This document shows, piece by piece, positions 1 to 39,660 of a stretch of 64,000 nt of DNA; position 1 is the first letter of the stretch; each line of letters starts with the position of its first letter. The stretch covers positions 1-64,000 of the forward strand of contig CASFZH010000025.1 in assembly GCA_949299115.1 (NCBI GenBank), read 5' to 3'. The notes beneath the pieces were generated by a model, which saw nothing but the letters and a program-made list of their open reading frames with translations, was not told the origin of the DNA and did not search any database. The translations under genes were made by a program, and so were the position numbers. Source of the DNA: an uncultured Helicobacter sp. Lineage in GTDB: Bacteria > Campylobacterota > Campylobacteria > Campylobacterales > Helicobacteraceae.

Positions 1-249
1 TTTAATTGTCTTGTTTCGTTTAAGTATCAATGTAATTAACCCAAAATTACATTGATTCCATAACATATAATATAAATACTAGGCGTTCATTCAATCTTTT
101 CACTAAAATTATATATTATTTGATTACTAATAGTATGGCTTAAGCACAACTCTATAATGATACAATCTAGTTTATGTGATGGTGTTTTTCGTAAAGCATT
201 GTTTGAAAATATGCTACGCAATAAATGTAGATTAACACGTAAAATTTAG

Positions 250-760
250 TTTATTTTGTATGCCTTTTTTTGTGTTTTATTGTAAAGAAGTCTAGTAATA
301 TATAATATAAACTACTTTGATTTTTTGTTGATTTTAATGTAATTTCTTTGTTATTCTTAATATATTTCTGCAATGTGCTATAAGCTATATTATAATCTTT
401 TGCTATTTGTCTTATTGATTTAGGTGCACTTTAAGAGCTTTGTGATAAGCATGTAAGGCTTTTTGTATTTGTTCTCTAGTCTTTGCTATTGATGTAAGGT
501 TTATTGAAAATACATAATTGTCTATTTTTGATTGCTCACACTCAATACAAAAGCAGAAAATATTCTAAAAGATCCAAACAGTACTCAAATTCTTCTAAAA
601 ATTTCATAAGAACAACAAATATGTTTTAATTTTCCTCAAAATATACCCCATTCAGATTTTGCAATCATACTGAAAGAATTAAAAATAACCAGGTTAGAGT
701 TAGCCCAATAAGCGATAAAGAATGACTTATTCATTATAATATAATAAACCATAATAATAC
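250..760. pseudogene. Decayed DNA-binding protein fragments
   Basis: No intact gene is visible in the first 800 bases. On the - strand (about 520 down to 250) two reading frames together give a helix-turn-helix segment: REQIQKALHAYHKALK in one frame, continuing as SAPKSIRQIAKDYN in the next, so a single frameshift near 430 separates the halves. The second half resembles the Psq/resolvase-type HTH of transposases and phage regulators. On the + strand (about 640-730) SDFAIILKELKITRLELAQ is followed by a stop and looks like the start of an XRE-type HTH. Both are inferred relics of mobile-element regulators; the family assignment is tentative. Confidence 0.35.
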
Positions 761-808
761 TAAAATCTAGACTTTCATTACAATACTAGACTAAAGTGAA
801 AAATAAGA

Positions 809-1519
809 CTAAATTTCTGGCTCTTTTGGCTTTAAGAAACCAATCCGATTATTAGCATAATCCACAATCCTATTGGCAATACGTTGCAAAGGCAGTATCT
901 CTCGAACTGCTCCTATTTCAATAGCTTTCTTTGGCATACCAAATACAACACAACTGGCTTCGTCCTGAGCAATCGTATAAGCACCATTATCAAACAATTC
1001 TTTCATGCCAATCATACCATCATCACCCATACCTGTAAGAATAACAGCTAAGGTATTTTTGCCTGACACATTATTAGCACTACGAAATAATATGTCTACA
1101 CTTGGTCTATGTCTATTGATACGTCTCTCATCAAACGGAGTAGCATAATATTTACCACCCTCATAACTTAATACAACATGAGCACCACCATTAGCAATAT
1201 ATGCACTATCTGGTTGTAACTGCACTTTTGAGTTAACCTCAAAAACACTAATTTTACTATTAGAATCTAATCTAGTTGCAAGCGAACTTGAAAACATCTT
1301 TGGTATATGTTGTACAACGACAATAGGCGGTAATCCTATTGGCAATGCAGAAAAAATTTTATTTAATGCCTCAGTGCCTCCCGTTGAACTTCCTATAACG
1401 ATTAATTTTTCGCGAGATAAAGTGCAAGGATTCTTTGCTAAGATAGTATCCGGATGGTATTTTTCTTCGATTTGTTTTGATAAGATACTATTTGTTTTTT
1501 TATCGTGAAATAATGCCAT
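809..1519 (-). CDS. cheB: Chemotaxis protein-glutamate methylesterase, receiver-less CheB
   Basis: This 236-residue protein removes methyl groups from chemoreceptor glutamates and resets chemotaxis signalling in the cytoplasm. It carries only the C-terminal catalytic domain: the nucleophile motif GSSTGG (Ser45), His71 in VVQHIP and Asp167 in LTGMGDDG form the expected Ser-His-Asp triad. The usual N-terminal receiver domain is absent and only a 35-residue lead precedes the catalytic fold, as is known for Campylobacter CheB. The ATG has an AGGA Shine-Dalgarno seven bases upstream. It lies 32 bp downstream of cheR on the same strand, so the two form an operon. Activity cannot be controlled by CheA phosphorylation of an attached receiver. 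Confidence 0.93.
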   Translation of the reverse strand: MALFHDKKTNSILSKQIEEKYHPDTILAKNPCTLSREKLIVIGSSTGGTEALNKIFSALPIGLPPIVVVQHIPKMFSSSLATRLDSNSKISVFEVNSKVQLQPDSAYIANGGAHVVLSYEGGKYYATPFDERRINRHRPSVDILFRSANNVSGKNTLAVILTGMGDDGMIGMKELFDNGAYTIAQDEASCVVFGMPKKAIEIGAVREILPLQRIANRIVDYANNRIGFLKPKEPEI

Positions 1520-1551
1520 ATCATTTTCCTAAAAATAATCTCTAATAATAT

Positions 1552-2415
1552 TTAGATGGAATATTCTGAATTACGTATAAAAATTTTATTTCCAAGTCTA
1601 TCGAACTTATCTCCCATTCCTAAAATATCTTCGGAATGACCCAAATACAAAGTGCCACCAACCTTTAAAACATTATGTAGCTTTGCCAAAATTTTTTCTT
1701 GATCTTTTGGTTTAAAATAAATAAGAACATTACGACAAAAAACCATGTCAAATTCCTTAGAACTAAAGGGATAATTTTTATTAAATAAATTAAGTTGTTG
1801 AAAAGTTATCATACTTTTAAGTGAATCTTTTGCACGTAAGTGCATGATACCATTTGGTAAGATTTTTACAATACTAAAATATTTCTCAAGCTCTACCCAA
1901 TCTGGAATCTTATTTAATCTTTTATCAAGCGTATATTCACCTTTTTTTGCAATTTCAAGCATATTAGTATCAATATCAGTGCCAATGATTTTAATATTAG
2001 CATGTGATTTATATAATGTCTTTGCATACAAACATGTTGCTGCAATAGAATAAACCTCTTCGCCACTTGAACTTGCGGAACAAAAAATCTTAATGGTGTC
2101 ATTATTGCGTAGTAGCGGTATTAATGAACGATTAAGCATGTCATCAAAATGGTATGCCTCACGGAATAAATCTGTTTTGTTGGTAGTAAAACTATTTATA
2201 AAAGCCTGTTTTACTTGAGAATCCGTCTTTATGCAACGCAATAAATCATCAAGGGTATGAATATTATAACAAACAGGATCTTTGAGTAAAAGAGTAATTC
2301 TATTATGTATCATAGTTTGTTTAGAATCTGTAAGATAAATACCACAGACCTCATATAAGATATTTTGTACTTGATGTAATCCTTTAGAATCTAAAAGTAT
2401 CGCATTATGTTTCAA
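1552..2415 (-). CDS. cheR: Chemoreceptor glutamate methyltransferase CheR
   Basis: This 287-residue protein methylates receptor glutamates using S-adenosylmethionine, opposing CheB. Visible motifs are the SAM-binding segment CSASSSGEEVYSI near residue 113, the acidic loop GTDIDTNML, and FCRNVLIYF followed by the late strand GGTLYLGHSE. The length is close to the family norm. The start is a TTG at 2415 with a good AAAGAGG Shine-Dalgarno five bases upstream. It is first in a cheR-cheB pair and is transcribed away from pdxJ, with about 100 bp of shared upstream sequence. Chemotaxis is central to mucosal colonisation in this genus. Confidence 0.93.
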   Translation of the reverse strand: MKHNAILLDSKGLHQVQNILYEVCGIYLTDSKQTMIHNRITLLLKDPVCYNIHTLDDLLRCIKTDSQVKQAFINSFTTNKTDLFREAYHFDDMLNRSLIPLLRNNDTIKIFCSASSSGEEVYSIAATCLYAKTLYKSHANIKIIGTDIDTNMLEIAKKGEYTLDKRLNKIPDWVELEKYFSIVKILPNGIMHLRAKDSLKSMITFQQLNLFNKNYPFSSKEFDMVFCRNVLIYFKPKDQEKILAKLHNVLKVGGTLYLGHSEDILGMGDKFDRLGNKIFIRNSEYSI

Positions 2416-2478
2416 TAAAACCTCTTTATTTTTAAATGTTAAAAAATAATATGCTAGTATTTTTCTAGATTTTCAAGT

Positions 2479-2484
2479 TATAAT
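2479..2484 (+). promoter_or_regulatory. Likely -10 element for pdxJ
   Basis: A perfect TATAAT lies 33 bp upstream of the pdxJ ATG, placing a transcription start near 2491 and leaving room for the AAAAGGA ribosome site just before the start. No -35 is obvious, which is normal for sigma-80 promoters of this group. Confidence 0.5.
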
Positions 2485-2516
2485 AGTAGCATATTTTATT
2501 AAAAAAAGGAATATAC

Positions 2517-3305
2517 ATGAGACTTGGAGTAAATATTGACCATATAGCCTATCTACGTGAAACACGGAAAATTAATGATCCAGACCCGCTAGAGGCTATT
2601 TTTATCGCTAAAAGAGCCGGGGCCAATCAAATTACCATTCATTTACGAGAAGATAGAAGACATATCCATGACAGTGATGTGATACGTATCATAGAATCAA
2701 GTTTTTTGCCTGTTAATGTAGAATGTGCTATTGCAAGTGATATAGTTGATTTTCTATGCGATATAAAACCATACAGAATCACACTTGTGCCAGAAAAAAG
2801 AGATGAAGTAACCACAGAAGGAGGGTTGCTTGTAGGCAATCATTTGTTACCTATAATACAAAAGTTCTATGATAATGATATTGACATTGCCTTATTTATT
2901 GATGCAGATTCTAAAGCTGTAGTTGAAAGTGCTAAATTGGCAAATGCTATACAAACTACAATTGGTGTAGAATTGCACACTGGACGCTATGCAAATATAT
3001 CTTTAAGTTTAGAATCTAATCTCTCACGCACCCAGCATAGTATAAAAGAATTTGAAATTTCAAGACGACATTTACAGCAACATCTAAATCAAGAATTAGA
3101 AAATATAAAAAATGTAGCAAAATTAGCTAAAAAAGAAGGGCTAAAAGTCTATGCTGGACATGGACTTAATTACCACAATGTGAGTAAAATTGTAGAAATT
3201 AAAGAAATAGAAGAATTAAATATTGGACAAAGCATTATTGCAAGATCTATTTTTACAGGCTTAGAACAAGCCATAAGAGACATGAAAGCTTTATGTGTCC
3301 AATAA
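2517..3305 (+). CDS. pdxJ: Pyridoxine 5'-phosphate synthase
   Basis: PdxJ condenses 1-deoxyxylulose 5-phosphate with 3-amino-2-oxopropyl phosphate in the last ring-forming step of DXP-dependent vitamin B6 synthesis. The 262-residue TIM-barrel protein shows the family signatures GVNIDHIAYLRETR at the N terminus, TIHLREDRRHI, VPEKRDEVTTEGGL, GVELHTGRYA and the C-terminal glycine-rich phosphate site YAGHGLNYHNV. Length is normal. The start follows an AAAAGGA site. pdxA, its usual partner in Helicobacter, is not downstream here; the next gene is pldA after about 210 bp. Confidence 0.95.
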   Translation: MRLGVNIDHIAYLRETRKINDPDPLEAIFIAKRAGANQITIHLREDRRHIHDSDVIRIIESSFLPVNVECAIASDIVDFLCDIKPYRITLVPEKRDEVTTEGGLLVGNHLLPIIQKFYDNDIDIALFIDADSKAVVESAKLANAIQTTIGVELHTGRYANISLSLESNLSRTQHSIKEFEISRRHLQQHLNQELENIKNVAKLAKKEGLKVYAGHGLNYHNVSKIVEIKEIEELNIGQSIIARSIFTGLEQAIRDMKALCVQ

Positions 3306-3465
3306 TAAACTATTTTTATGTTAAAATTATGAAAACTATAAATATTAGAAATGACAAATTGAATATACATAGAATACCATGAATATCATAAATTCAAGCT
3401 TTTTATATTACAATCAAAAAATATGGACATTACAATATTTCAAGTTTTAAATATTTGCTAAATTG

Positions 3466-3478
3466 TTTTTTTTTTTTT
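3466..3478 (+). repeat. Poly-T tract (13) upstream of pldA
   Basis: Thirteen consecutive T residues end 40 bp before the pldA start codon. Tracts of this length slip during replication, and in Helicobacter such tracts near promoters alter the transcription level. A phase- or dose-variable pldA promoter is an inference. Confidence 0.6.
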
Positions 3479-3518
3479 GGTTTAATTATTAACTAACTAA
3501 AAAAATAAGGTTTTTATA

Positions 3519-4508
3519 ATGTATGGATTTAAAAAATGGGCTTTAATGGCAATTATTGCAATAAAACTTTCAGCTAATCAAGATTCAATAGAAAAGCAAG
3601 GCGACATAACAGTGCAAAGCAAACCACAAATTAAAACCTTTAGTCTTTTTTATGTGAAAATTCCTTATGAAGCTACACAAAAAAATGAAAAAATTTTGCA
3701 ATACTTTCCCCTCATTTATAAAAAAGCCCAGCTTTTAAATCCGCCGCTGAACGATACAACACAGCCTACCTATCAAGATTCCCTCAATCCCAAATCTTTA
3801 TTGCCCATTGAAGAATGGCGTGGTAATTATGTTATGGAAGTCTACAATTTTGCAAGCATGTATGATGCAAATTTTATTAAGGCAGAAACTAAGGCTCATG
3901 TCAGTTTTAGAGTGCCGATTGTTAGGAATTTTATAGATTCTGGTGGATCTTTATATTTTGCCTTTACAAATGTCTTTTTTTTCCAATTTCTTAATGAAAA
4001 AGCAAGTTCTCCTGTTAGAGATAGTGATTTATCCCCAGAATTTCTTTGGGTTTGGCCACTCAATATAGATTTTCTAGGTGGCAAAATACAAGAATTTACG
4101 ACAGGTTGGAGACATATTAGCAATGGAGAAGTAGGAGATAGAAGTCGGGGGACTGATAGATGGATTTTTAAGTTAATATGGACATCTGGCAAATTTGGGG
4201 TAGATTTAGAATTTTTTATGCCCACGCGTTATTATAGTGAAAATATAGATATTTATAAATATTTGGGCATTGGAGACATTAAAATATTTTTTAGACACAA
4301 AAAACATCTACTTGATTGTACAATCAAAGGGCTTTTCCGCATTAATTATTCATATATGCAATATTCTTCATTTGAATTAGGCTATACCTACAAACTCAAT
4401 CCCTACTTTGGGATTTATACCCAATATTTTGTGGGATATGCCGATGTCCTCTATGAATACAATAGATTTGCTCACAGAATAGGAATTGGCATAAGAAGTA
4501 TTCTATAA
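3519..4508 (+). CDS. pldA: Outer membrane phospholipase A
   Basis: OMPLA is a beta-barrel enzyme that hydrolyses phospholipids in the outer membrane and acts in lipid asymmetry, acid adaptation and haemolysis in Helicobacter. The 329-residue protein begins with a signal peptide and contains the catalytic block GWRHISNG, giving His199 and Ser201. The position equivalent to the enterobacterial triad Asn156 (Ser+12) is Asp213 in SRGTDRW, if the spacing is conserved. The C terminus is rich in aromatic alternating residues, as expected for barrel strands. Start ATG with an AAGG site. The upstream T13 tract suggests variable expression. Confidence 0.9.
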   Translation: MYGFKKWALMAIIAIKLSANQDSIEKQGDITVQSKPQIKTFSLFYVKIPYEATQKNEKILQYFPLIYKKAQLLNPPLNDTTQPTYQDSLNPKSLLPIEEWRGNYVMEVYNFASMYDANFIKAETKAHVSFRVPIVRNFIDSGGSLYFAFTNVFFFQFLNEKASSPVRDSDLSPEFLWVWPLNIDFLGGKIQEFTTGWRHISNGEVGDRSRGTDRWIFKLIWTSGKFGVDLEFFMPTRYYSENIDIYKYLGIGDIKIFFRHKKHLLDCTIKGLFRINYSYMQYSSFELGYTYKLNPYFGIYTQYFVGYADVLYEYNRFAHRIGIGIRSIL

Positions 4509-4744
4509 TCAAGATATTCTAATATATAGAATCAATTTAATAAAATATAATGATATTTAGATATTATTATATGTAATAGAATAATTTTATGTTTTATTCT
4601 ATTCTTGCAATTTTTCCTATTTCTATCATATTATTTACTTTTTTACCCATTTCATTTAAAAATGTTTAGTTAATACTCAATTGCATATAAAACGCTTTTG
4701 TATTGCAAATTAAAAATATATTTTGTCGTTTTTTTCTGCTATGG

Positions 4745-4750
4745 TATAAA
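4745..4750 (+). promoter_or_regulatory. Likely extended -10 element for the acetate permease operon
   Basis: TATGG immediately precedes TATAAA, about 43 bp upstream of the DUF485 gene start. This is a good extended -10 box for a vegetative promoter driving both downstream genes. Confidence 0.4.
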
Positions 4751-4792
4751 TAGCTTTAAATAATATAAAGCAATTTTCACAAGGAGGCAATC

Positions 4793-5131
4793 ATGAGTAA
4801 GGCAACTGCACAAAATGCAAAAGAAAGGTTTTACAAATTTGTTTCATTTAGAAATAAATTTTCATTATTTTTATCATGTATTATTTTTCTTTGTTATTAC
4901 GTTTTTGTAGCAAGTATCGCATTTGCACCAAATATTTTAGGATATCGTTTAGGACCAAGTGCTATTACACTCGGTGTTATGAGTGGCATATTTATTATTA
5001 TTTTGTGCATTGTAACAACGGGAATTTATACCTTTTTTGCTAATAAGTATTTAGATAAAGAGCAAGAAGAAATATTGCAAGAACTCGAAGAAACTGGAGT
5101 TATTCAGGATTTACAGAAAGGTAAAATATAA
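4793..5131 (+). CDS. DUF485 (YjcH-like) inner membrane protein
   Basis: This 112-residue protein has two strongly hydrophobic helices (about residues 24-46 and 62-84) between a basic N terminus and an acidic, coiled C-terminal tail. The size and layout match DUF485/YjcH, which is almost always encoded directly before the sodium/acetate symporter actP. That is the arrangement here, with 92 bp between the genes. Its molecular role is unknown, though co-transcription with ActP implies a role in monocarboxylate uptake. The start has an excellent AAGGAGG ribosome site. Confidence 0.85.
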   Translation: MSKATAQNAKERFYKFVSFRNKFSLFLSCIIFLCYYVFVASIAFAPNILGYRLGPSAITLGVMSGIFIIILCIVTTGIYTFFANKYLDKEQEEILQELEETGVIQDLQKGKI

Positions 5132-5223
5132 AATGTTAAGAGAATCTAGCAACAATATATTTCATATTGTTACCAATATAATAGATTCTGTAATACTCAA
5201 ATTATTTTATTAAGGACAAAAAA

Positions 5224-6879
5224 ATGCGTAAGATTTATTTGATTTTGATGTTATTTGGTTTAAGTCAGTTTGCATTTTCTGCTGGTATTGACGCAGCAAA
5301 TGTAGAAAAAAGTAGCATTAACTATACTGCTATTACAATGTTTGTTGTGTTTGTAGTGGCAACACTTGGAATCACATACTTTTCTAATAAAATTTCACAA
5401 TCTACACAGGGTTTCTATACAGGTGGTGGGAATATTTCAGGTGTACAAAATGGCATTGCCATAGCAGGAGATTATATGAGCGCTGCTAGTTTTCTAGGCA
5501 TTGTGAGCTTAGTTTTTAGTAATGGGTTTGACGGGCTTGTGTATGCTATCGGATTTCTTGTTGGTTGGCCAATTATCATGTTTTTAATAGCAGAAAAATT
5601 TAGAAATTTAGGTAAATTTACTTTTGCAGATATTGTTGCTTATCGTTTAAGCTCTCGCTCTGTACGTACGATTTCTGCCATAAGTGGCTTATGTGTCATT
5701 GTTTTTTATCTTATCGCACAAATGGTTGGAGCTGGATTACTTATACAATTACTTTTTGGTTTATCTTATAACACAGCAGTATTTCTAGTTGGAATCTTAA
5801 TGATTTGCTATGTTACTTTTGGTGGTATGCATGCTACAACTTGGGTGCAAATTATCAAAGCAATCCTATTACTTGGAGGATGCACATTTATGGCAGTAAT
5901 GATTCTAATTTTAGCAGATTTTGACCTAAAACATTATTTTGATATGGCAATCCAAAATCATGAGAAAAAAGAACTTATTATGCAACCCGGAACATTTTTA
6001 CCAGACCCAATATCGGCATTTAGTTTAGGGCTTGGTTTAATGTTTGGCTCTGCAGGCTTACCGCATATCCTCATGCGTTTCTTTACTGTTAAAGATGCCA
6101 AAGAAGCAAGAAAATCTGTATTTCTTGCTACTGGGTTGATTGGCTATTTTTATATTTTAACATTTATTATTGGTTTTGGTGCAATAGCATTCTTATTATC
6201 AAATCCAGATTTCATAGATTCTAACGGACATTTTATAGTCGCAAAAAATATGGAAGCCGTGGTATTAGCTAAGGTGTTAGGTGGTAACATATTCTATGCC
6301 TTTATTGCAGCTGTCGCTTTTGCTACTATTTTAGCTGTTGTCGCTGGACTCGCCATATCTGGGGCAGGAGCTATTAGTCATGATTTATTTGTGAATGTTA
6401 TAAAAAATGGTAATGTAGATTCGAAAACAGAATTAAAAGTTACACGAATATCCACTATATGTTTAGGTATTTTAGCTATTTTACTAGGCATTGCTTTTAA
6501 TGGACAAAATGTAGCCTTTATGGTTGGACTTGCTTTTGCTATTGCCGCTAGTGTGAATTTTCCTATCATCTTACTTTGTATATATTGGAGAAATCTCACT
6601 ACAAAAGGAGTTTTATTTGGCGGATTAATCGGACTTATAAGTGTGCTTCTATTAGTTATTTTAAGTCCAAGCGTATGGGTAAAGGTTTTAGGATTTGAAA
6701 CAGCCATTTTCCCTTATGACCATCCAGCAATTTTTACTATGCCAATTTCTTTTATCGCTATTTATGTTTTTTCTAAGTTTGATACTAGCGAACGTGCAAA
6801 AATTGACAAAGCAGGATTTAATGCACAAGACTTTAGGGCACAAAGCGGTGTTGGAATCAGTAGTGCAGTAGCACACTAA
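5224..6879 (+). CDS. actP: Cation/acetate symporter ActP
   Basis: This 551-residue sodium:solute symporter (SSS family) has a cleavable-looking N-terminal hydrophobic segment followed by about 13 transmembrane helices. Family hallmarks visible include FYTGGGNISGVQNGIAIAGD, DYMSAASFLG and GLPHILMRFFTVKDA, typical of ActP/MctC acetate-glycolate permeases. It follows the DUF485 gene as in enteric actP operons, but acs is not in the window. Acetate and related short-chain acids are plausible substrates for a gut organism. The specificity is inferred from family and context. Confidence 0.9.
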   Translation: MRKIYLILMLFGLSQFAFSAGIDAANVEKSSINYTAITMFVVFVVATLGITYFSNKISQSTQGFYTGGGNISGVQNGIAIAGDYMSAASFLGIVSLVFSNGFDGLVYAIGFLVGWPIIMFLIAEKFRNLGKFTFADIVAYRLSSRSVRTISAISGLCVIVFYLIAQMVGAGLLIQLLFGLSYNTAVFLVGILMICYVTFGGMHATTWVQIIKAILLLGGCTFMAVMILILADFDLKHYFDMAIQNHEKKELIMQPGTFLPDPISAFSLGLGLMFGSAGLPHILMRFFTVKDAKEARKSVFLATGLIGYFYILTFIIGFGAIAFLLSNPDFIDSNGHFIVAKNMEAVVLAKVLGGNIFYAFIAAVAFATILAVVAGLAISGAGAISHDLFVNVIKNGNVDSKTELKVTRISTICLGILAILLGIAFNGQNVAFMVGLAFAIAASVNFPIILLCIYWRNLTTKGVLFGGLIGLISVLLLVILSPSVWVKVLGFETAIFPYDHPAIFTMPISFIAIYVFSKFDTSERAKIDKAGFNAQDFRAQSGVGISSAVAH

Positions 6880-28591: not shown

Positions 28592-29885
28592 GAGCTGCTA
28601 AACAGAATACAAACATAAGCTTTATTTATAGAAAATAGTTCATGAAGTTTTAAACTACACAGCCATCATGCAAACTTTTTTGATTCCATATAGAATCTGC
28701 ACACAGCTATTGTAATGAAAATCAAAAAATTTTAGAATCTCATTATGGATTGCAACCTCACTCTGCATAATCTCATGTCAATGTCCAAGCAACACAAAAA
28801 ATAAACAGACTGGAAAAGATAATTTTGCAATACAGTCTTAGTCGCATATAGATTAAGAATCTCATCAAAGCAATGATTATATAGAGTCTAGATTCTCATA
28901 CACACATGTTAATCTATTATGCCTGAGGATATGAAGTATCCGAAACATCTAAAATTCAAGAATCTAAAAAGAATCTAGAATCTTGTCATTTAGATTCTCT
29001 ATTGCTTCACTTTAGTTATAATAACAATATGTATATCCTGCTTTTTGGATTGTTTCGTTATGCTTACACTGCCTTACAGTAGATAAAATATTGAAGAATC
29101 CATAAATAATTTTTGAGAATCTGAAAATCTAGCCATATTGATGCTAAAAATCTGAAGCAACTAAAGTATAGATTCGTAGATTCTAAAAGTGTAGATTCTA
29201 GAATTTAAAACCCTAGATTCTAAGGCTAACACTAAAGAATTAGTCTTCCATCTATCATCTCTACAAGCTTACAGAATCTGAAACACGAATCGTAGAAAAA
29301 AGCGGCAAATAATATAGCAATATTTACATTTTGTAAAGATGAAAAAAATGTGAAGCATTGCATAAAATACCACATACACTACTTTTACTACTTTGCATAA
29401 AATAACGAGATTCAAAGCTCAGCCTCTCTATAACATATCACAAATAGGTGATTATCGCATTGACTCTATAAATTTTGCAAAGCACTGCTATTACTTGTGT
29501 AATTAACATTGTAATAGATTCCGCCATTCACTTATACGAGCCTAGCATTACGCAATATTGCCAAATAATAACAATTTTATAACTCTATAAAATATCACTA
29601 CACAAAAACACGCACAAAATAGGGCTTTTACTATGCTTATAAGTAAAATATCATATAGCAATAAAAGTATATACAATGTGGTTAAGATTAAAGTTATGAG
29701 ATTATCTACTATATTTATTGAGATTTTTACAGTAATTGCTTCTATGATTTATGTTTAGCTATTGAGATAATCTCAACGTTAAAAGTTTAGGTTATCATGT
29801 ATTGCATTTTGTTTATTTGTAGCTTTTTATAATAAATCATTATATGTATATTACTTAGAATATGGAACAAAAATTTATAATACAA
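28592..29885. other. 1.3-kb gene-free region left of the CRISPR array
   Basis: No intact gene is seen. The sequence is peppered with AGATTCT/AGAATCT heptamers (for example around 28960-29220). Its right end contains an AT-rich segment partly duplicated on the other side of the array. Confidence 0.5.
29605..29848 (+). repeat. Left copy of array-flanking direct repeat
   Basis: Blocks near 29608-29660 (ending in ATATCATAT) and 29772-29845 (CTCAACGTTAA, then TTATTTGTAGCTTTTTATAA) recur in the same order at 33455-33510 and 33821-33945. The copies are diverged and the right copy has extra sequence. This copy directly precedes the first CRISPR repeat. Confidence 0.5.
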
Positions 29886-32800
29886 ATTTTAGTCTCTTTA
29901 TAAATCTTTCTATGCTAAAATATATGCCAGAAAAACCAAAATTAACACAAGGTTTTAGTCTCTTTATAAATCTTTATATGCTAAAATTAGCATATCGGTG
30001 TGAAATATCACTTTATCGTTTTAGTCTCTTTATAAATCTTTATATGCTAAAATTTTGATTTCTTTATACACTACTTTTTGAGAGTTTTAGTCTCTTTATA
30101 AATCTTTCTATGCTAAAATTAGCTCCGACGTGATTAGATCCATTTTTGAGTTTTAGTCTCTTTATAAATCTTTCTATGCTAAAATTAAAATCCCTTTAGG
30201 AATAACAAGCTTTTTGTTTTAGTCTCTTTATAAATCTTTCTATGCTAAAATTAACACTAGGGTGAACGTCATCGCCCATGCGTTTTAGTCTCTTTATAAA
30301 TCTTTCTATGCTAAAATTGCGGTGTATCCCACGCTTTCAGTGGTTAGTTTTAGTCTCTTTATAAATCTTTCTATGCTAAAATTTAAGGGTGATTTAAAGT
30401 TACCTTTGACTGGTTTTAGTCTCTTTATAAATCTTTCTATGCTAAAATAACAGATAGCAAGGCTGGGAATGTAGCATAGTTTTAGTCTCTTTATAAATCT
30501 TTCTATGCTAAAATTTATAGCGATACTCGTCATATCGGTCAATGTTTTAGTCTCTTTATAAATCTTTCTATGCTAAAATAATATATCTCCTTGTTTAGCG
30601 AAAGCGTAAGTTTTAGTCTCTTTATAAATCTTTCTATGCTAAAATCACACCTGCTTGAAATCCTTGAGAAATCTGGTTTTAGTCTCTTTATAAATCTTTC
30701 TATGCTAAAATTGTAACCACGTACTGTGATATATATGTGTCGTTTTAGTCTCTTTATAAATCTTTCTATGCTAAAATTGTCCTGCATACTCTATCACCAA
30801 ATGAAAAGTTTTAGTCTCTTTATAAATCTTTCTATGCTAAAATACGATTGGATGAGTAGTCATAGTCCTTTTTGTTTTAGTCTCTTTATAAATCTTTCTA
30901 TGCTAAAATCAATCGACAATGGTATCTTGATCGTGGTTTGTTTTAGTCTCTTTATAAATCTTTCTATGCTAAAATCAAATTTTCTTTTCTATCGTATAAC
31001 ATTTAGTTTTAGTCTCTTTATAAATCTTTCTATGCTAAAATTTTATCATTGGGAATATAACTGTAGGTTGTGTTTTAGTCTCTTTATAAATCTTTCTATG
31101 CTAAAATAGAATAGGCGGGGCTATATTGAGTGCTGTTGTTTTAGTCTCTTTATAAATCTTTCTATGCTAAAATACTTAACCCTATCCCTATTGTTGCGAA
31201 TTTGTTTTAGTCTCTTTATAAATCTTTCTATGCTAAAATAGACAAATTATTAAAATAAACACAATCTAAGTTTTAGTCTCTTTATAAATCTTTCTATGCT
31301 AAAATATCAGAAAGCTTAGGATTAACTATGATCGAGTTTTAGTCTCTTTATAAATCTTTCTATGCTAAAATTTCGGCTTTAACCTCTTCAGGCTCCTTTT
31401 GTTTTAGTCTCTTTATAAATCTTTCTATGCTAAAATTCATCATTCAAATAAAGCTCCTTAGTATAAGTTTTAGTCTCTTTATAAATCTTTCTATGCTAAA
31501 ATTATATAGAGTAGAATGTTTTTTTTTTTTTTGGTTTTAGTCTCTTTATAAATCTTTCTATGCTAAAATACCAGTAGCGGCAGCCTCGTAGATATTTTGG
31601 TTTTAGTCTCTTTATAAATCTTTCTATGCTAAAATACCATACTCGGATACACAAACATACGATATGTTTTAGTCTCTTTATAAATCTTTCTATGCTAAAA
31701 TGCAGATAAACCATAATCACTCATATTATATGTTTTAGTCTCTTTATAAATCTTTCTATGCTAAAATAACCTCAGAGCGTGGGACCTGCGACCACTGGTT
31801 TTAGTCTCTTTATAAATCTTTCTATGCTAAAATCTTCAATCCGTTTCCGTAGATGTTTATTGGGGTTTTAGTCTCTTTATAAATCTTTCTATGCTAAAAT
31901 AAATATAATAACGTGAAAATGAGGCCGACAGTTTTAGTCTCTTTATAAATCTTTCTATGCTAATATAAATCTTTCTATGCTAAAATTCAGGAACTTTTGT
32001 AACTAATGATTGAAGGTTTTAGTCTCTTTATAAATCTTTCTATGCTAAAATTCCGTTCAGAATTTAACGCATTACAATTTAGTTTTAGTCTCTTTATAAA
32101 TCTTTCTATGCTAAAATCTGATAGGGCGAACAACACTGAAACATCTTGTTTTAGTCTCTTTATAAATCTTTCTATGCTAAAATTAAAATGCCTTTAGGGA
32201 CAACAATTCTCCTGTTTTAGTCTCTTTATAAATCTTTCTATGCTAAAATACTAACTCCATCTTTGATAAGCCTATCAATGTTTTAGTCTCTTTATAAATC
32301 TTTCTATGCTAAAATTAAAATGCCTTTAGGGACAACAATTCTTTTGTTTTAGTCTCTTTATAAATCTTTCTATGCTAAAATCTTTAAAATTTTTACGAGC
32401 CAATCCAATTCGTTTTAGTCTCTTTATAAATCTTTCTATGCTAAAATATCAGAAAGCTTGGGATTGACAATTATAGAGTTTTAGTCTCTTTATAAATCTT
32501 TCTATGCTAAAATACCACTTACAGTTACATCCCGAATGATAAAGTTTTAGTCTCTTTATAAATCTTTCTATGCTAAAATGGACCTGCGACCAAGTGTAAC
32601 CAAATTTAGGTTTTAGTCTCTTTATAAATCTTTCTATGCTAAAATCAGGAAAGTCGAGTTATTTGTTGAGTTTGAGTTTTAGTCTCTTTATAAATCTTTC
32701 TATGCTAAAATTTAGACTGTCGCCGATGGTTGCTCCTGTGATGTTTTAGTCTCTTTATAAATCTTTCTATGCTAAAATAAAAAAACCGAAACGCGTAAAG

Positions 32801-33110
32801 CCTCTTGCGTTTTAGTCTCTTTATAAATCTTTCTATGCTAAAATCGCCATGTTTTGAAGCATAAGACGATTCGCAGTTTTAGTCTCTTTATAAATCTTTC
32901 TATGCTAAAATTCACTGTGGGTGAGGGGGGATCTTTCTTAAGTTTTAGTCTCTTTATAAATCTTTCTATGCTAAAATCTTTCATGAACTCGTTGTGTCTC
33001 TCGATTAGTTTTAGTCTCTTTATAAATCTTTCTATGCTAAAATTCTGATAGGGCGAACAGCACTGAAACATTCTGTTTTAGTCTCTTTATAAATCTTTCT
33101 ATGCTAAAAT
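29886..33110 (+). CRISPR. Type II-C CRISPR array, 49 repeats and 48 spacers
   Basis: The 36-nt repeat begins GTTTTAGTCTC and ends TATGCTAAAAT, with spacers of 29-31 nt and a period of about 66. Orientation follows from similarity to the Campylobacter jejuni type II-C repeat, which begins GTTTTAGTCCC in the crRNA sense, and from the matching anti-repeat downstream; crRNAs read on the + strand. Repeat 1 starts with A instead of G and repeats 2 and 3 carry C25A, so the left end looks older. Repeat 32 (31931-31986) is 56 nt long through a 20-nt internal duplication. Each repeat ends in TGCTAAAAT, an extended -10 that could drive transcription from every unit. Several spacers are variants of one another. 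Confidence 0.99.
31931..31986 (+). repeat. Aberrant 56-nt CRISPR repeat with internal duplication
   Basis: The repeat reaches GCTAA, then restarts at TATAAATCTTTC and finishes normally, duplicating 20 nt of its 3' half including the -10-like end. The following spacer is 29 nt. Confidence 0.95.
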
Positions 33111-33114
33111 ACCC

Positions 33115-33143
33115 TTGAAATTGAGAAAATATTAGGATACAAT
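33115..33143 (+). promoter_or_regulatory. Predicted tracrRNA promoter
   Basis: TTGAAA at 33115-33120 and TACAAT at 33138-33143 are separated by exactly 17 bp. This predicts initiation at about 33150, the first base of the anti-repeat. Confidence 0.7.
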
Positions 33144-33149
33144 TCACAT

Positions 33150-33262
33150 ATAGAAAGATTTATAAAGAGACTAAAATAAACTTGTCGGTTAGTGCAGGGT
33201 GCGAGATTCATCTTAAGAATCTGCCAAAAATCCCAAAACCGATATGACTTATACAGCGTATT
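33150..33262 (+). ncRNA. Predicted tracrRNA
   Basis: Bases 33150-33176 are perfectly complementary to 27 nt of the CRISPR repeat, and the next base allows a G-U pair with the repeat's first G. The ACTAAAATAAA junction matches the C. jejuni tracrRNA. Downstream, AGATTC at about 33204-33209 pairs with GAATCT after a short loop, nested inside TCGGTT pairing with AACCGA, a compact fold that could serve as the Cas9-binding tail. A well-spaced promoter lies immediately upstream. The 3' end is uncertain because no T-run terminator is obvious; 33262 is an estimate. Confidence 0.85.
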
Positions 33263-33452
33263 TACTACAATATTCATAATGATTACCATCTTATCTACAA
33301 TAACAAAATAACAATAAGATTTTTTATAACAGTATTGCTATTTCGTACTATCCTTAACCACGAATAACTCCAATCATTCAACGACTTTGCATACAATACA
33401 ACATTTTTATTATATGTTTTGTATAGTGATATAGCATCACAATCTACACTTA

Positions 33453-33945
33453 TAAACACGCATAAAATAGGACTTTACTATGTTTATTAATAATATCATA
33501 TCATATTATTATGTGTTATTTGTAATATTCATATTAATAAAAGTATATATAATTCTTATGTAAATTAAACCTGTAAATTTGTTTTGCAGTAATCCTGTAT
33601 ATACGCTTTTATGCTTTAAGTACTTAAAAAAGATTCTAGACTCTTATTAATTTATTTTGTATTATTTTACAATTTCTACATAGTTTAACTTATTTTATAT
33701 TTAAATGTTTTTGTAAGCAATTGTAAAGCTTTTGAATTATTTTCAAAACATATTCTTATATTTAAATGAATAACCTTATTGTGTTTAGAAAGTATTCATC
33801 TTAAAAGGAATATGTTTAAACCTCAACGTTAAGAGCTTAATGTATCGTTATATCTAGTATAGTAAGATTACCTACTTTTTGAAAAAAGTATTTATATTAA
33901 CTCGTATTACATTTTTGCTTATTTGTAACTTTTTATAATAATTAT
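33453..33945 (+). repeat. Right copy of array-flanking direct repeat
   Basis: This is a diverged, longer copy of the AT-rich segment found left of the array, lying between the tracrRNA and the cas2 3' end. Shared blocks include AACACGCA/TAAAATAG near 33456, CTCAACGTTAA near 33822, and TTATTTGTAACTTTTTATAA near 33919. The remaining sequence from 33263 to 34008 holds no gene. Confidence 0.45.
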
Positions 33946-34008
33946 TGTATATCAAGTTTGATATTTGAATATCCCACCCATTACCCACTGTTCTACATAT
34001 TCATGACT

Positions 34009-34359
34009 TCAATCCTCCATCTTTTCATCAAAACTAAAAAGTGTGAGATTTTTTTGGTTATTCATCTGTTCATTAAAGCTCTCACTCCCAAGCAAAATTT
34101 CCATAGAATCAAACTGCTTCTCTGTGATGATAAGACAGCGGATACTCCCCCTTGGCGGGACAAACTTCCTCACATTATTGATAGCGGCTTTTGCAGATGC
34201 ACTACCCTTACAGATTCGCATATACACGCTAAATTGCATCATAAAAAAGCCAAGCTTAATAAGATTATTACGAAACTTCGTGCCTGTCTGCCTATCTTTC
34301 TTAGTCTTAGTAGGCAAATCAAACATCACCAGCACCCGCATAAACTTATCCTCCACCAT
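34009..34359 (-). CDS. cas2: CRISPR-associated endoribonuclease-like integrase subunit Cas2
   Basis: Cas2 is the structural partner of Cas1 in the spacer-integration complex. The 116-residue ferredoxin-fold protein has the typical opening strand RVLVMFDLPTKTKKDR, with the conserved Asp after the first strand, and ends in a strand block (SIRCLIITEKQFDSMEIL). It starts three bases after the cas1 stop, so the genes are translationally linked. It is the last gene of cas9-cas1-cas2 and converges on the array and tracrRNA. No csn2 or cas4 follows, which defines type II-C. Confidence 0.95.
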   Translation of the reverse strand: MVEDKFMRVLVMFDLPTKTKKDRQTGTKFRNNLIKLGFFMMQFSVYMRICKGSASAKAAINNVRKFVPPRGSIRCLIITEKQFDSMEILLGSESFNEQMNNQKNLTLFSFDEKMED

Positions 34360-34362
34360 ACC

Positions 34363-35280
34363 CTACTCCATACAAACCACCACCAATGGTTGCCCATACA
34401 ACAAAGCATTTTTAAACCGCTGCACATACTGATTAATCGCTCGACTTAGCGGGAAACTCTGCCCTCCCACCTTTGCCTCACTTTGTAGATTCTCAATCAA
34501 AGCCTTTTTATCCTGCTTGCTCATACACTCCAAATCCTCATCAAGAGAATCTAGCCCCCTAGATTCCAAAAGCCCAAGCACACATCTATCCACAAAAGGA
34601 CGAAACACCTCGATAATATCATCACAGAGATTAAATTGATTAAACTGATTGCTATGCTTTATCCCACTCCAAGTGAGTAGCCCACTCATACACACACTAC
34701 GGATTACACAGCTCCGCACGATAGCATAGCCATAATCTAGCAAGGCATTGTGAATCTTGTGTTTGGCTTTGCGTGAAAACCCTATCCCAAAAAGTGTCTT
34801 AAAATACAATGCTGCTGCCTTCGCCTCAACATTACTAGCATCATCTGCCTCTACTTTTTCACACATTCTCGCCAACTCCGCTGCTTCTGTAATATAGCCA
34901 CAAGATTGCAACACAGAGGCTTGATTAGCAATTTTATTTTGCACGATTTGCTGCCAAAGCTTTGCCTTAGATTCTGTGCTCACAGCGATTTGCTCTCTTG
35001 CCACTTGCGCATTGGCAAAATGCCCCAAAAATGGCGTGAAAATTCCATTGATAGCATGTGTCCTATCACAAGTAAGCACCAGCACTTTAGATTCTGCTAA
35101 TGCACTCAAAAGCGCTTGGGTAATCGTGATTTGAGGGCTTTCTAGCACCACACAATGCAAATCCTTGATATAGAGTTTTGCCACCTCATCATTTCCCGCT
35201 ATTACTAAATGATTATCTTGCAGGCTAAGTTTTGCTCTACTTGATATGATGACATTTTTAAATGCCTCATCATAGCCCAT
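34363..35280 (-). CDS. cas1: CRISPR integrase Cas1
   Basis: Cas1 is the metal-dependent integrase that inserts new spacers at the array. The 305-residue protein begins with the N-terminal beta domain (NVIISSRAKLSLQDNHLVI). The helical catalytic domain includes the family block VEAKAAALYFKTLFG, and the conserved acidic segment LLDYGYAIVRSCV and a downstream NLCDDIIEVFRPFVD block are all present. The acidic metal ligands are visible in those blocks. AAGGAG precedes the ATG, 19 bp after the cas9 stop. It appears complete, so spacer acquisition should be possible. Confidence 0.96.
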   Translation of the reverse strand: MGYDEAFKNVIISSRAKLSLQDNHLVIAGNDEVAKLYIKDLHCVVLESPQITITQALLSALAESKVLVLTCDRTHAINGIFTPFLGHFANAQVAREQIAVSTESKAKLWQQIVQNKIANQASVLQSCGYITEAAELARMCEKVEADDASNVEAKAAALYFKTLFGIGFSRKAKHKIHNALLDYGYAIVRSCVIRSVCMSGLLTWSGIKHSNQFNQFNLCDDIIEVFRPFVDRCVLGLLESRGLDSLDEDLECMSKQDKKALIENLQSEAKVGGQSFPLSRAINQYVQRFKNALLYGQPLVVVCME

Positions 35281-35299
35281 TGTATCTCCTTATTATCTT

Positions 35300-38200
35300 T
35301 CATTGTGCATTATTTTGCTTCCGATGTTTCTTAGGAGAAGTCTTGAGGGCGATAGGCTGCCTTGGCTCATATTTTGCCTCTTTTATTTCCCCTAGCGGCG
35401 AAACCTTGTATTTTTTAAAGACTTTGAGATTTTGAATGCTTCCCCTACCCACCACCTCTTTTTCTATGGCTTCGCTAAAAAGCTTCTTTTGATTCTCATT
35501 AATCTTCGTAATATCATTGCAATGATGTCTAACCTTAATCCTCCCATCTGATGCATCTAAAGACACAAAATACGCTAATTCTGGCTTTTCCATATCTCTT
35601 TTCTGCACCTCTATCAAATCATCTTTAAAAAGCGAAAAACAAAACTCATAGTTAGAATCCATCTCTAGCCAGTCCTTGATAATCCTATCGTTATCCTTGC
35701 CACTCACCACAGCTTTATTAGGCAAGATTCCAAGGGCAAAATCCATCGTATAAATAGGCACAGCATAGAATCTCCCGCTTTTTTTGTGCTTAAAAATATC
35801 CACACGCACCATAGGTCCATTTACCACGATTTTTGTCCCAATCTGTCGTATTTTGCCTAGTGCTAATGCCTTCTTAACACCCTCTGAGCTCCCATAATCC
35901 CTTTTAGAAAACTTTTTCTTGTATTTAGAAATTTGCTTCCATTCTTTTTCTGGCAGTCCTTTTTGCTCCTCCGCAATTTCTTGCTCACTCTTTCGTTGCC
36001 AATAAAAAAGCTTCCCATTTTGCTCCTGATAAAATGTTTCCTCATGCAACGCCCCTCTTGCCCGCTTCCTTGGTGGGCGTGAGACAAAGATTTGCCCCAC
36101 TTTTGCTAGCACCTGCTCCCTAAAGCCGCTAAAAGGCTCAAAAAACGCCCTTTGTGTCTTAAACTCCTCTTTTGCTAACTCTTTAGCATAGAATCTTGCC
36201 TTTAAGCTTTCTTGGTTTTGTCTAAATTGTGAGAATCTCTGTATCATCGCCGCATTGATATAAGCGATGATAATCGCATCGATAGCGTGGTGGGTATGCT
36301 CATAGCGGTTTTTGCTACCCAATCCCCAAAAATGCCGCATAGTCGCAGTTAGCATTCCCTTCACTGCTTCCACATGAATCTTGCTGTCTTTCTCTCCCGC
36401 AATAAGTGCTGTGTTTTCATGAGAATCTAGCGGCAAAAATTTCAAATACTCTTTAGTGTAGTTAGCAATCAAACGCGCGATATAGCCAGAATCCACGATA
36501 TTACGACTTTTAAACCCAGCCTCTCTATCTCCAAAGCCTTTGTCCAAAATCCGCTTTGCCTTTTTCTTTGGATAGCCACTCCTAAGGGCTAGAGATTCTA
36601 TCTCTCCCCATTTTTGAGAATCTCCCCCAAATGCCTCATAGGGTGTTTTATTGCCCTTGTTTTGATTCTCATTTGTAAAAACCAGCACTTTATTCATATA
36701 GCTATCATCGCTACTTCGCGAATAAGGCAAAATATGGTCGATTTCTAACGCTCCTTGCTCCTTGAGATTTGCTAAAGTGATTTTCCTCCCACTATATACA
36801 CATATTTCATTCTGCTCCCTAAAAAGCCGCAATTTCAGGATATTCCCCTCACTTAGTGTCAATCCCAGCTTCTCGCACTCTTGCATAGCCTGCACCCTTG
36901 CTTGATGGTTACTCTCTATCTCTTTTTTGTATTTTTCTCTCTCTTGGAAGTTTTTTCCCACATCTCGCGTAAGCTCAATGTGAATCTTATGCACACTTCC
37001 ATATTTTGCAATCAAAGCATTAAGAATCTTACGATACTCCGCTATCGCCCTATGCACCACCGGATTTGTTAGCTCATCGGCATAGATACTCTCACAAAAG
37101 GGTGGCAAAAACTTGCTCTTTTTGTCATTATGCCGCGCCTTTAGCCCTGCTAATTTGCACGCCTCATCATACCGCATTCCCTCTCGCATAAATGGCAAAA
37201 TCTCGCTTAATGCCTTAAGGCTCAAATTAATATGACCACTAAAATCCATAGGCATTAGCTGTGCAATCTGCTCCTCGCTCAATCTCCTATATGTACGAAG
37301 CTTTTTGGCTAGCTCCTCTTCATCTTTGATAAGCGTCATATCTCGTGCGATAGAATCTGCCAATGCTCTATCCCCTGCTATCTCACTTAGAATCTCGCAA
37401 AACTTTTTTAGATTCTTATGCTCTATGAATTTTTTAGTTTCAGGATTTGAGGTCTTTTGTTTGTGTGTAGAATCTCCATTTGTGTTTTTGGATTTTCTAG
37501 CCATATAATCTACTTCTTTAAAGCGGATTCTCTCATCAATATGCAAAATCTTGCGTAATTGCGCAAAGCTCAAGCTCCCCTTTTCACACACAGCCTTAAA
37601 CACAGAATCTAACATTTGCTTATATTGCCCTTTGCTATACACTTCCCCACTTTCTTTACTTATATAGGTTAGCACATTAATGGTTTTGCTAAGTGTGATA
37701 AACTCCACGGCACTAAGAGAGCATTTTGGCGCACGAAATTCATCAGGATAAAATGTGCATTTTCCCACAAGGTGCGAAAAATCCTTAAGCGGTCGTCGAT
37801 AAAAAGCAATCTGAAAAATCTCATCTAAAAACTCTTTGGTCAGTGAGAATCTAGCCCCTTTTTTATGAGTCTCTTGCTTTGTGCAATCTCTCATCTGCTT
37901 TGCACAATCTCCTAGAAACTGCCCACTTTGAGAATCTCCTATCTTTGGGAATCCAAGCTCTTTTTGTCGTGCAAAAATCAGCTCCAATTCCCGATATAAA
38001 TCCGCTTGCAACATACAATTTTCATATGCCCCACTCTTATTGCGTATGGGTTTTATTGCCCGCACCTTTGCTCCAAACGCATGATGAGGATTCTTGATTA
38101 CAAGACTTTCAGCCATTGTATTGCCCACTTCCCCATTTGCTGCACTCTCTGTGCTTTTATCTCGAACTTCCTTACACGGTATCCATTGATCCCCTATCCA

Positions 38201-38746
38201 CACTTCACAAAATTCTTTATAAAAATACTCGCCAATTGTGCGGTATTTGGCTACTTTTAGACTATTTTCTTGCAATGCTTTTTGAATCTTACCCTGCTCT
38301 TTTTTCTTACTCTCATCATTACCTACAAGCCTCGTATTGTTATTGCTATAGCCACGATGCTTTGCGATATGTAAAATCACTCTAGCAAGCTCCTCCTTAC
38401 TCAAAGCCCTCTCTAGTGCCTCATATCGCAACGCATAAGGATTGGTAAGATTTGTGCCACTAAAAGCCTTAGGCAATTCACCATCAGCTGAAATATAATC
38501 TTGATAGCACAAGCCCCACTCTTTTGCAAGAAGTCTTTTCAACATCTCTAGCCTACTTTTGCGTCTTGAAAGTCGCTTGCGAGTGCTTCTTGCCTCTCTA
38601 CGCGGGAGGGCTAGAGAATCTCCTGTTTTGGGATTTTCTGCTTTGGTAAATATCCGCACCCCACAATCTCGCAATTCCCCATTTTCTACAAATGCCCAGC
38701 CAATCGAGGCAATCCCAATATCAAAGCCTAGAATCTTTGTATGCAT
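35300..38746 (-). CDS. cas9: Type II-C Cas9 endonuclease, 1148 residues
   Basis: Cas9 uses crRNA:tracrRNA to cleave DNA. It is clearly related to C. jejuni Cas9 (984 residues) but about 160 residues longer. RuvC-I is ILGFDIGIASIGWAF with Asp9, followed by the Arg-rich bridge helix. RuvC-II has Glu591 in HIELTRDVGKN, the HNH nuclease has His671 in LEIDHILPYSRS and Asn694, and RuvC-III has Asp823 in HHAIDAIIIAY. All catalytic residues are therefore intact. Extra sequence lies in the recognition lobe (about residues 180-290) and near the start of the PAM-interacting region, where a Lys/Glu-rich insert follows ALHEETF. AAGGAG precedes the ATG. It heads the cas9-cas1-cas2 operon. Confidence 0.98.
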   Translation of the reverse strand: MHTKILGFDIGIASIGWAFVENGELRDCGVRIFTKAENPKTGDSLALPRREARSTRKRLSRRKSRLEMLKRLLAKEWGLCYQDYISADGELPKAFSGTNLTNPYALRYEALERALSKEELARVILHIAKHRGYSNNNTRLVGNDESKKKEQGKIQKALQENSLKVAKYRTIGEYFYKEFCEVWIGDQWIPCKEVRDKSTESAANGEVGNTMAESLVIKNPHHAFGAKVRAIKPIRNKSGAYENCMLQADLYRELELIFARQKELGFPKIGDSQSGQFLGDCAKQMRDCTKQETHKKGARFSLTKEFLDEIFQIAFYRRPLKDFSHLVGKCTFYPDEFRAPKCSLSAVEFITLSKTINVLTYISKESGEVYSKGQYKQMLDSVFKAVCEKGSLSFAQLRKILHIDERIRFKEVDYMARKSKNTNGDSTHKQKTSNPETKKFIEHKNLKKFCEILSEIAGDRALADSIARDMTLIKDEEELAKKLRTYRRLSEEQIAQLMPMDFSGHINLSLKALSEILPFMREGMRYDEACKLAGLKARHNDKKSKFLPPFCESIYADELTNPVVHRAIAEYRKILNALIAKYGSVHKIHIELTRDVGKNFQEREKYKKEIESNHQARVQAMQECEKLGLTLSEGNILKLRLFREQNEICVYSGRKITLANLKEQGALEIDHILPYSRSSDDSYMNKVLVFTNENQNKGNKTPYEAFGGDSQKWGEIESLALRSGYPKKKAKRILDKGFGDREAGFKSRNIVDSGYIARLIANYTKEYLKFLPLDSHENTALIAGEKDSKIHVEAVKGMLTATMRHFWGLGSKNRYEHTHHAIDAIIIAYINAAMIQRFSQFRQNQESLKARFYAKELAKEEFKTQRAFFEPFSGFREQVLAKVGQIFVSRPPRKRARGALHEETFYQEQNGKLFYWQRKSEQEIAEEQKGLPEKEWKQISKYKKKFSKRDYGSSEGVKKALALGKIRQIGTKIVVNGPMVRVDIFKHKKSGRFYAVPIYTMDFALGILPNKAVVSGKDNDRIIKDWLEMDSNYEFCFSLFKDDLIEVQKRDMEKPELAYFVSLDASDGRIKVRHHCNDITKINENQKKLFSEAIEKEVVGRGSIQNLKVFKKYKVSPLGEIKEAKYEPRQPIALKTSPKKHRKQNNAQ

Positions 38747-38928
38747 TTTGACTCCTTATTCATTTTACTCATTATGATAGACAGATTACATGACAACTTG
38801 TCGATAACGTAAACGCCGTGATGCTCAAAATAACTGCAATTACATCTTAAACTTCATCATAAGCTAAAAACAACATTACAAATTTTATAGAATCATCAAA
38901 AGACAAACATCAAGTAACATAGAGAAAT

Positions 38929-39660
38929 CTATAAATATTTTCTAGCACCCCTATAAACTCTTTTCCAATAATTATTTTCAAGGTTTGCAATGGTTACTTT
39001 TTTGCCTTTTCCTGGAGCATGAATAAACTTCCCATTACCTATATAAATTCCCACATGATTCACTGCCTTGCTTTTATTGGTTGTAAAAAACACAAGATCT
39101 CCAGCTTGTAGATGAGACTTTAAAACAAATTTTCCTGTATTAAATTGGTCACGTGAGATTCTAGGTAGAGAGAGACCATTTAGCTGATACACCGCACGAA
39201 CAAGCCCACTGCAATCAAAACCACTAGAGTTTGTTCCACCCCATTTATATGGGACACCAAGATATTGATGTGCATCTCTTGCAAGATTTTTTCGAATAGT
39301 GTCTTTTTTGGAATCTTTTTGATTAATAGCATAACTACTTGGACTTACAATCATATATTCATCTATAAGTTTTTGTTTTTTATATTGCAATGCCATTTTA
39401 CTTGCTAAAGCAGAATCTTTGTAATTTCCAAATCGCACTTTATACATATCCTTTTCCTTAAAGAAAAAAGCATCCAATTTCTTTTTATTAAGTAAATCTG
39501 CAAGATTCCACGCATTTTCAAGCTTTTTAAAACTCCCAACTTGTATACTATATGCAAGACTAGCAATATTTTTCTGTATCGGCAGCTTGTCAGTATGAGA
39601 GCTTGCAAACGAAAAACTACTATAATAAAAAAATAGTATAACAATACCTATTTGTTTCAC
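38929..39660 (-). CDS. SPOR-domain NlpC/P60 peptidoglycan endopeptidase
   Basis: This 243-residue cell-wall hydrolase carries a signal peptide, a SPOR domain (SIQVGSFKKLENAWNLADLL through YKVRFGNYKDSA) that binds denuded septal glycan, and a C-terminal NlpC/P60 domain. Catalytic Cys is in GFDCSGLVRAVY, with histidines in VNHVGIYIG and FIHAPG. It should cleave peptide stems of peptidoglycan in the periplasm, probably at the division site. The GTG at 39660 is preferred because GGGGA lies just upstream; an earlier TTG has no ribosome site. Confidence 0.88.
   Translation of the reverse strand: MKQIGIVILFFYYSSFSFASSHTDKLPIQKNIASLAYSIQVGSFKKLENAWNLADLLNKKKLDAFFFKEKDMYKVRFGNYKDSALASKMALQYKKQKLIDEYMIVSPSSYAINQKDSKKDTIRKNLARDAHQYLGVPYKWGGTNSSGFDCSGLVRAVYQLNGLSLPRISRDQFNTGKFVLKSHLQAGDLVFFTTNKSKAVNHVGIYIGNGKFIHAPGKGKKVTIANLENNYWKRVYRGARKYL

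Follow-up and report, generated by a model that had tools for sequence, protein, structure and literature searches.

How does a single CRISPR array come to hold several spacers that resemble one another without being identical? The question is raised by an array in a 2.6-Mb Helicobacter genome, which we analyzed within a window of 64,000 nucleotides on contig C25. The array (29886–33110, plus strand) consists of 49 repeats of GTTTTAGTCTCTTTATAAATCTTTCTATGCTAAAAT and 48 spacers of 29–31 nt. Facing it on the minus strand is a cas9-cas1-cas2 operon (38746–34009), made up of cas9 (35300–38746; 1148 aa; TIGR01865), a type II cas1 (34363–35280; TIGR03639) and cas2 (34009–34359; TIGR01573). The relatives of this Cas9 were Helicobacteraceae throughout, with a top identity of 58%. 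In the list of open reading frames covering 29500–38929, these three were the only cas genes in the neighborhood of the array, with no csn2, cas4 or other cas gene seen, and this is the gene content of a type II-C system. A probable tracrRNA lies beside the array (33150–33246, plus strand), recognized by its sequence and predicted fold (z = −1.9). It carries the anti-repeat ATAGAAAGATTTATAAAGAGACTAAAAT at its 5' end, with positions 33150–33177 being complementary to the array repeat, and is preceded by a promoter-like TTGAAA-N-TACAAT sequence; the region had no match in Rfam. The CRISPR-Cas system is thus of type II-C. By analogy with type II systems in general, the crRNAs should be read from the plus strand, which would make the 3' end of each spacer its PAM-proximal, or seed, end. 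Variant repeats at the left of the array suggest that the left end is the old one.

Three other features of the array region were observed. The 3' part of the repeat at 31931–31985 is tandemly duplicated internally (TATAAATCTTTCTATGCTAATATAAATCTTTCTATGCTAAAAT), resulting in a unit 19 nt longer than the others. The spacer at 31503–31533 contains a run of 14 T residues (TATATAGAGTAGAATGTTTTTTTTTTTTTTG), which is unusual in a crRNA. AT-rich stretches that look alike are found on either side of the array (29606–29677 and 33454–33553), share three 23-nt matched blocks of 83–91% identity, and are perhaps the remains of an old duplication around the array.

The first-pass annotation had described three groups of spacers as diverged copies of the same coding sites. 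These groups are real, in that the top spacer-spacer local scores of 27 (32184/32316), 25 (32118/33044), 20 (31306/32448) and 17–18 (30186 against 32184 and 32316) exceed the maxima of 10–16 obtained with shuffled arrays, and the peptides reported for them were reproduced upon re-translation. All spacers discussed here are given by their plus-strand coordinates. Family A contains the spacers at 30186–30215, 32184–32213 and 32316–32345, which encode KKLVIPKGIL, RRIVVPKGIL and KRIVVPKGIL on the antisense strand; by eye, the first of these resembles a C-terminal motif of VP4. Family B contains the spacers at 31306–31335 and 32448–32477, both encoding SIIVNPKLSD in antisense. Family C contains the spacers at 32118–32147 and 33044–33074, which encode KMFQCCSPYQ and RMFQCCSPYQ in antisense and probably correspond to the start of VP4, judged by eye. 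In all three families the repeat-proximal ends of the members line up exactly (ATGTTTCAGTGYTGTTCGCCCTATCAG is an example of a family sequence).

The two spacers of family B share 25 of 30 bases, and their differences fall at coding positions 3, 6, 9, 12 and 18, all of them third codon positions that leave the amino acids unchanged (P = 0.001 against random placement, taking the best of six frames). We found a fourth family, D, that had escaped the first-pass annotation. Its members at 31042–31071 and 32514–32543 both encode TTYSYIPNDK, the former in antisense and the latter in sense, such that the second covers the site of the first in the opposite orientation. The spacer at 31042 is identical to the reverse complement of that at 32514 at 25 of 30 bases from end to end, and the five differences are again all synonymous (P = 0.001). 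The earlier claim that changes are confined to synonymous or conservative positions holds for family B. For families A and C amino-acid conservation alone was not significant (P = 0.23–0.64), and the evidence for these families is their end-to-end nucleotide identity. The first codon of family C probably sits upstream of the start codon, in which case the K/R change found there would be uninformative as to selection on the protein. Among the pairs compared, third positions accounted for 16 of 21 differences (P = 7e-5); each pair or link of a triple was entered once, and one misaligned comparison was left out. An additional pair missed by the first-pass annotation, 31768 and 32580, overlaps at one coding site at an offset, with 13 bases in common (GGACCTGCGACCA, equivalent to KFGYTWSQVPRSEV). 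The array thus holds two or more spacers on one protospacer with coding-constrained differences, the pattern by which same-site recapture is recognized.

Similar spacers could also arise if a spacer was duplicated within the array and the copy then mutated. Duplication does occur in Helicobacter arrays: in Helicobacter sp. MIT 11-5569 (G373, L156/L248), spacers 9/11 and 10/12 form identical, alternating pairs, an ordinary array duplication. In the window array, however, the repeats flanking the spacers are identical although the spacers themselves diverge at as many as 8 of 30 positions, and every difference within families B and D is synonymous. The opposite orientations of 31042 and 32514 strongly disfavor duplication within the array. 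For families B and D the synonymous differences, together with the orientation in the case of D, refute duplication followed by mutation, and as a general account of the families we consider it scarcely credible. Repeated capture of the same protospacers from relatives, as proposed in the first-pass annotation, is the best explanation. There is good support for such captures having been independent and drawn from diverged relatives whose proteins are conserved.

To what, then, do the spacers correspond? The first-pass annotation had pointed to Helicobacter prophages and plasmids. No spacer matched a plasmid, and searches of the host genome outside the array and of 119 genomes of the family, using all but four of the spacers, gave nothing beyond chance-level matches. 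Family B was found in its own genome and genus only in the array. Among 399 genomes of the order, the Phage_F capsid was absent except from one phiX174-like contig of 5392 bases in a Helicobacteraceae assembly (L092/L093, G319 contig C1), which is most likely a sequencing control. Part of the 48 spacers could not be assigned and some of these may target prophages, plasmids or host genes, but as the source of the spacers such elements are very improbable.

The targets instead appear, from sequence resemblance, to be tiny single-stranded DNA microviruses (Microviridae). We compared peptides of 9–10 residues to a growing microvirus set with shuffled controls, and found that spacers at six sites of the window array resemble conserved motifs of VP1 or VP4 (Rep). 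The spacer at 31768–31797 encodes QWSQVPRSEV in antisense, similar to the VP1 N-terminal peptide QFSQVPKAEI (score 37, compared to 36 for the 99% level of the control), and the VP1 of microvirus L269 begins with MANRLFSQVP. The overlapping spacer at 32580–32609 encodes KFGYTWSQV in antisense. The antisense peptide IDRYDEYRY at 30515–30543 resembles IPRYDEYRY of VP1 (score 45); 30 viral stretches matched the pattern RYDEYRYxxP, nearly all of them 4–5 kb long. A sense peptide, RLSPMVAPV at 32712–32742, resembles RMSPMVAPV of VP1 (score 42, control maximum 38). Two sites point to VP4. The antisense peptide ISYVCVSEYG at 31636–31665 resembles LRYFCVSEYG (score 42, control maximum 38), and CRPHFHVIIF at 31901–31930, also in antisense, corresponds to the HUH motif (score 47), with 26 of 28 nt found in the VP4 gene of KX513866. 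The MFQCCSPYQ of family C is similar by eye to MQCRSPYY at the VP4 start of MG945846 (L263).

Searches at the DNA level gave a consistent result. When the 48 spacers were compared to 50,697 phage records, the single match was to a gokushovirus VP4, and for a DNA query comprising five sites (30515, 31768/32580, 32712, 31636 and 31901) the ten best phage records were all Microviridae. The matches of window spacers to Microviridae genes thus consist of peptides and one short DNA match. Apart from the match of 26/28 nt in a conserved motif, no exact or near-exact protospacer of any window spacer was present in the collections searched, and patterns built from the family or site sequences had zero matches in the viral contig collection. 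An environmental clade related to L160 was considered as the target and rejected, as its resemblance is limited to the RxxPMVAPV motif and VP4, with no DNA match.

The spacers also show a marked codon phase. Of the 48 spacers, 39 have an open reverse-complement frame 0, compared to 23.9 ± 3.6 in shuffles, with the other five frames being near expectation. We attribute this phase to the PAM. In the three flanks that could be read from homologues, CC occupies PAM positions 5–6: these are the conserved FGY before the RYDEYRY site, the GGTTAC before the 31768 site as read from spacer 32580, and the MHP that follows RMSPMVAPV in MG945779 and MG945846. The flanks and the codon phase together suggest that the PAM used by the array is NNNNCC, and probably NNNNCCA. 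On the coding strand an NNNNCC PAM corresponds to a GGN glycine codon, and spacers chosen next to it would therefore be antisense and in frame 0. In the relevant genomes 46% of the NNNNCCA sites belong to the antisense frame-0 class and 77% are antisense, and ACCA has the highest antisense frame-0 share (53%) of all four-base words at positions 4–7. The codon phase and the antisense bias are most simply a PAM effect. Strand-specific uptake from single-stranded DNA was also considered as a source of this bias, but need not be invoked given that NNNNCCA sites are already 77% antisense.

More direct evidence comes from a related Helicobacter array. For the array of one related Helicobacter (G367), all nine phage records matched were Microviridae, in a query that also included two spacers from G270. 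Eighteen of the 37 spacers in the G367 array match pig or chicken microvirus DNA with no more than 7 mismatches, beside a shared NNNNRTAR-like PAM, and spacer 15 of this array (GYSDRYQEYR) and window spacer 30515 fall on overlapping parts of VP1. This array also contains a diverged pair of the kind predicted by recapture, spacers 18 and 28 (GAILGSAAIT and GAILGGAGIT), whose best site is one position in the VP2 (pilot-protein) gene of MT135457. The site is followed there by GCTGGTAGTG, which fits the G367 PAM (GTAG); the spacers have 6 and 9 mismatches to it, the exact phages being missing. Microvirus-like spacers were likewise found in H. cinaedi, H. equorum and Helicobacter sp. 10-6591, and diverged spacer pairs in the arrays of G349, Helicobacter sp. 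10-6591 and H. cinaedi. Microvirus-like spacers are thus present in L155, L245, L247 and L249 (from G367, H. equorum, 10-6591 and H. cinaedi, respectively), and three of the arrays seen hold diverged same-site pairs.

We consider it likely that this type II-C array repeatedly sampled a Microviridae lineage and that the same sites were recaptured from diverged relatives. According to this model, the host would have met several diverged members of one lineage of single-stranded DNA phages of about 4–5 kb. Spacers would be taken only beside the PAM, which would leave approximately 120–370 eligible sites; our counts per microvirus were about 372 for NNNNCC and 123 for NNNNCCA. With so small a genome and so few PAM-limited sites, the same site would be recaptured from relatives differing largely at synonymous positions.

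A potential concern is whether chance sampling suffices to produce the families. We simulated the case in which all 48 spacers hit one lineage (40 runs each) and obtained about 2–3.5 same-site pairs for NNNNCC and 4–8 for NNNNCCA, compared to six observed when the triple is counted as three. These data indicate that the recurrence is for the most part a consequence of the small genome. However, the simulations gave 4–9 detectable partial overlaps compared to the one observed, and under uniform sampling the probability of seeing the exact-site reuse together with no more than one partial overlap was 0–0.025. A pure birthday effect is thus strained as the full explanation. Because fewer partial overlaps were seen than uniform sampling would give, an extra site preference or selection is needed, and it is likely that such a preference, or re-sampling, acts on top of small genome size.

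One form that this could take is directed recapture, in which an existing spacer that imperfectly matches a new phage variant directs Cas9 to the site, after which acquisition favors that site, by priming or escape-driven renewal, beyond what random re-sampling would give. The first-pass annotation had noted that the two closest pairs differ chiefly at the repeat-proximal end and had viewed this as re-sampling of escape variants. The positions are as described: counted from the PAM-proximal end, 32184 and 32316 differ at nucleotides 2–3, next to the 3' repeat, and 32118 and 33044 at nucleotides 2, 3 and 15, mostly beside it. Since a seed-mismatched spacer would protect poorly against a new variant, recapture would be useful to the host, and escape-driven re-sampling is plausible as a cause of the families. 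In addition to the low probability under uniform sampling, directed recapture is favored by the concentration of second family members at spacers 34–40 (P about 0.01, post hoc). On the other hand, with all spacers directed at one lineage the three-base PAM by itself already gives 4–8 same-site pairs, some partial overlaps may go unnoticed where the phages are diverged, and the polarity of the array is only tentative. Priming in type II systems draws spacers from near the cut, not from the same site, which also counts against it. On balance we regard directed recapture as unlikely. A more specific version, in which an older, partially matching spacer returns both Cas9 and the acquisition complex to its exact protospacer in either orientation, is more doubtful still; if true, directed recapture on a diverged single-stranded DNA phage would renew memory instead of spreading it over the genome.

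Same-site recapture is already known from Legionella pneumophila. In its type I-C system, the element LME-1 is targeted at overlapping regions by paired spacers of unequal age, of which the older is mismatched in the seed or PAM. Such pairs were interpreted as the outcome of escape and subsequent acquisition of a new spacer (Rao et al. 2016, PMC5071653), a precedent that favors directed recapture here. The Legionella case involves primed acquisition against a 30-kb episome of known sequence, whereas the window array is type II-C, its target is probably a single-stranded DNA phage of 4–5 kb whose exact protospacer was not found, recapture is in exact register, and one pair is in opposite orientation. 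The type II-C systems of Campylobacter jejuni and H. cinaedi resemble the window locus in having the same type of 36-bp repeats, cas9-cas1-cas2 and an adjacent tracrRNA. The PAM proposed here, NNNNCC(A), differs from the NNNNRTAR-like PAM of G367 and is unlike that of C. jejuni.

Microviridae are among the commonest phages of the gut virome, and to our knowledge few have known hosts. H. cinaedi was assigned to type II-C by its Cas9, in a CRISPR study whose main text reports no Microviridae targets (PMC5640232), and a machine-learning study predicts H. pylori as a microvirus host (PMC11096546). Within the literature searched, the link between Helicobacter spacers and Microviridae appears to be new. 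The spacers in the arrays of the window, G367, H. equorum, H. cinaedi and 10-6591 represent evidence for a host of pig, chicken and related microviruses, and thereby link Helicobacter to a virus group that is very common in the gut. The window array comes with a testable PAM and, having captured one site repeatedly at varying degrees of divergence, provides a modest archive of how phages evolve under pressure from CRISPR.
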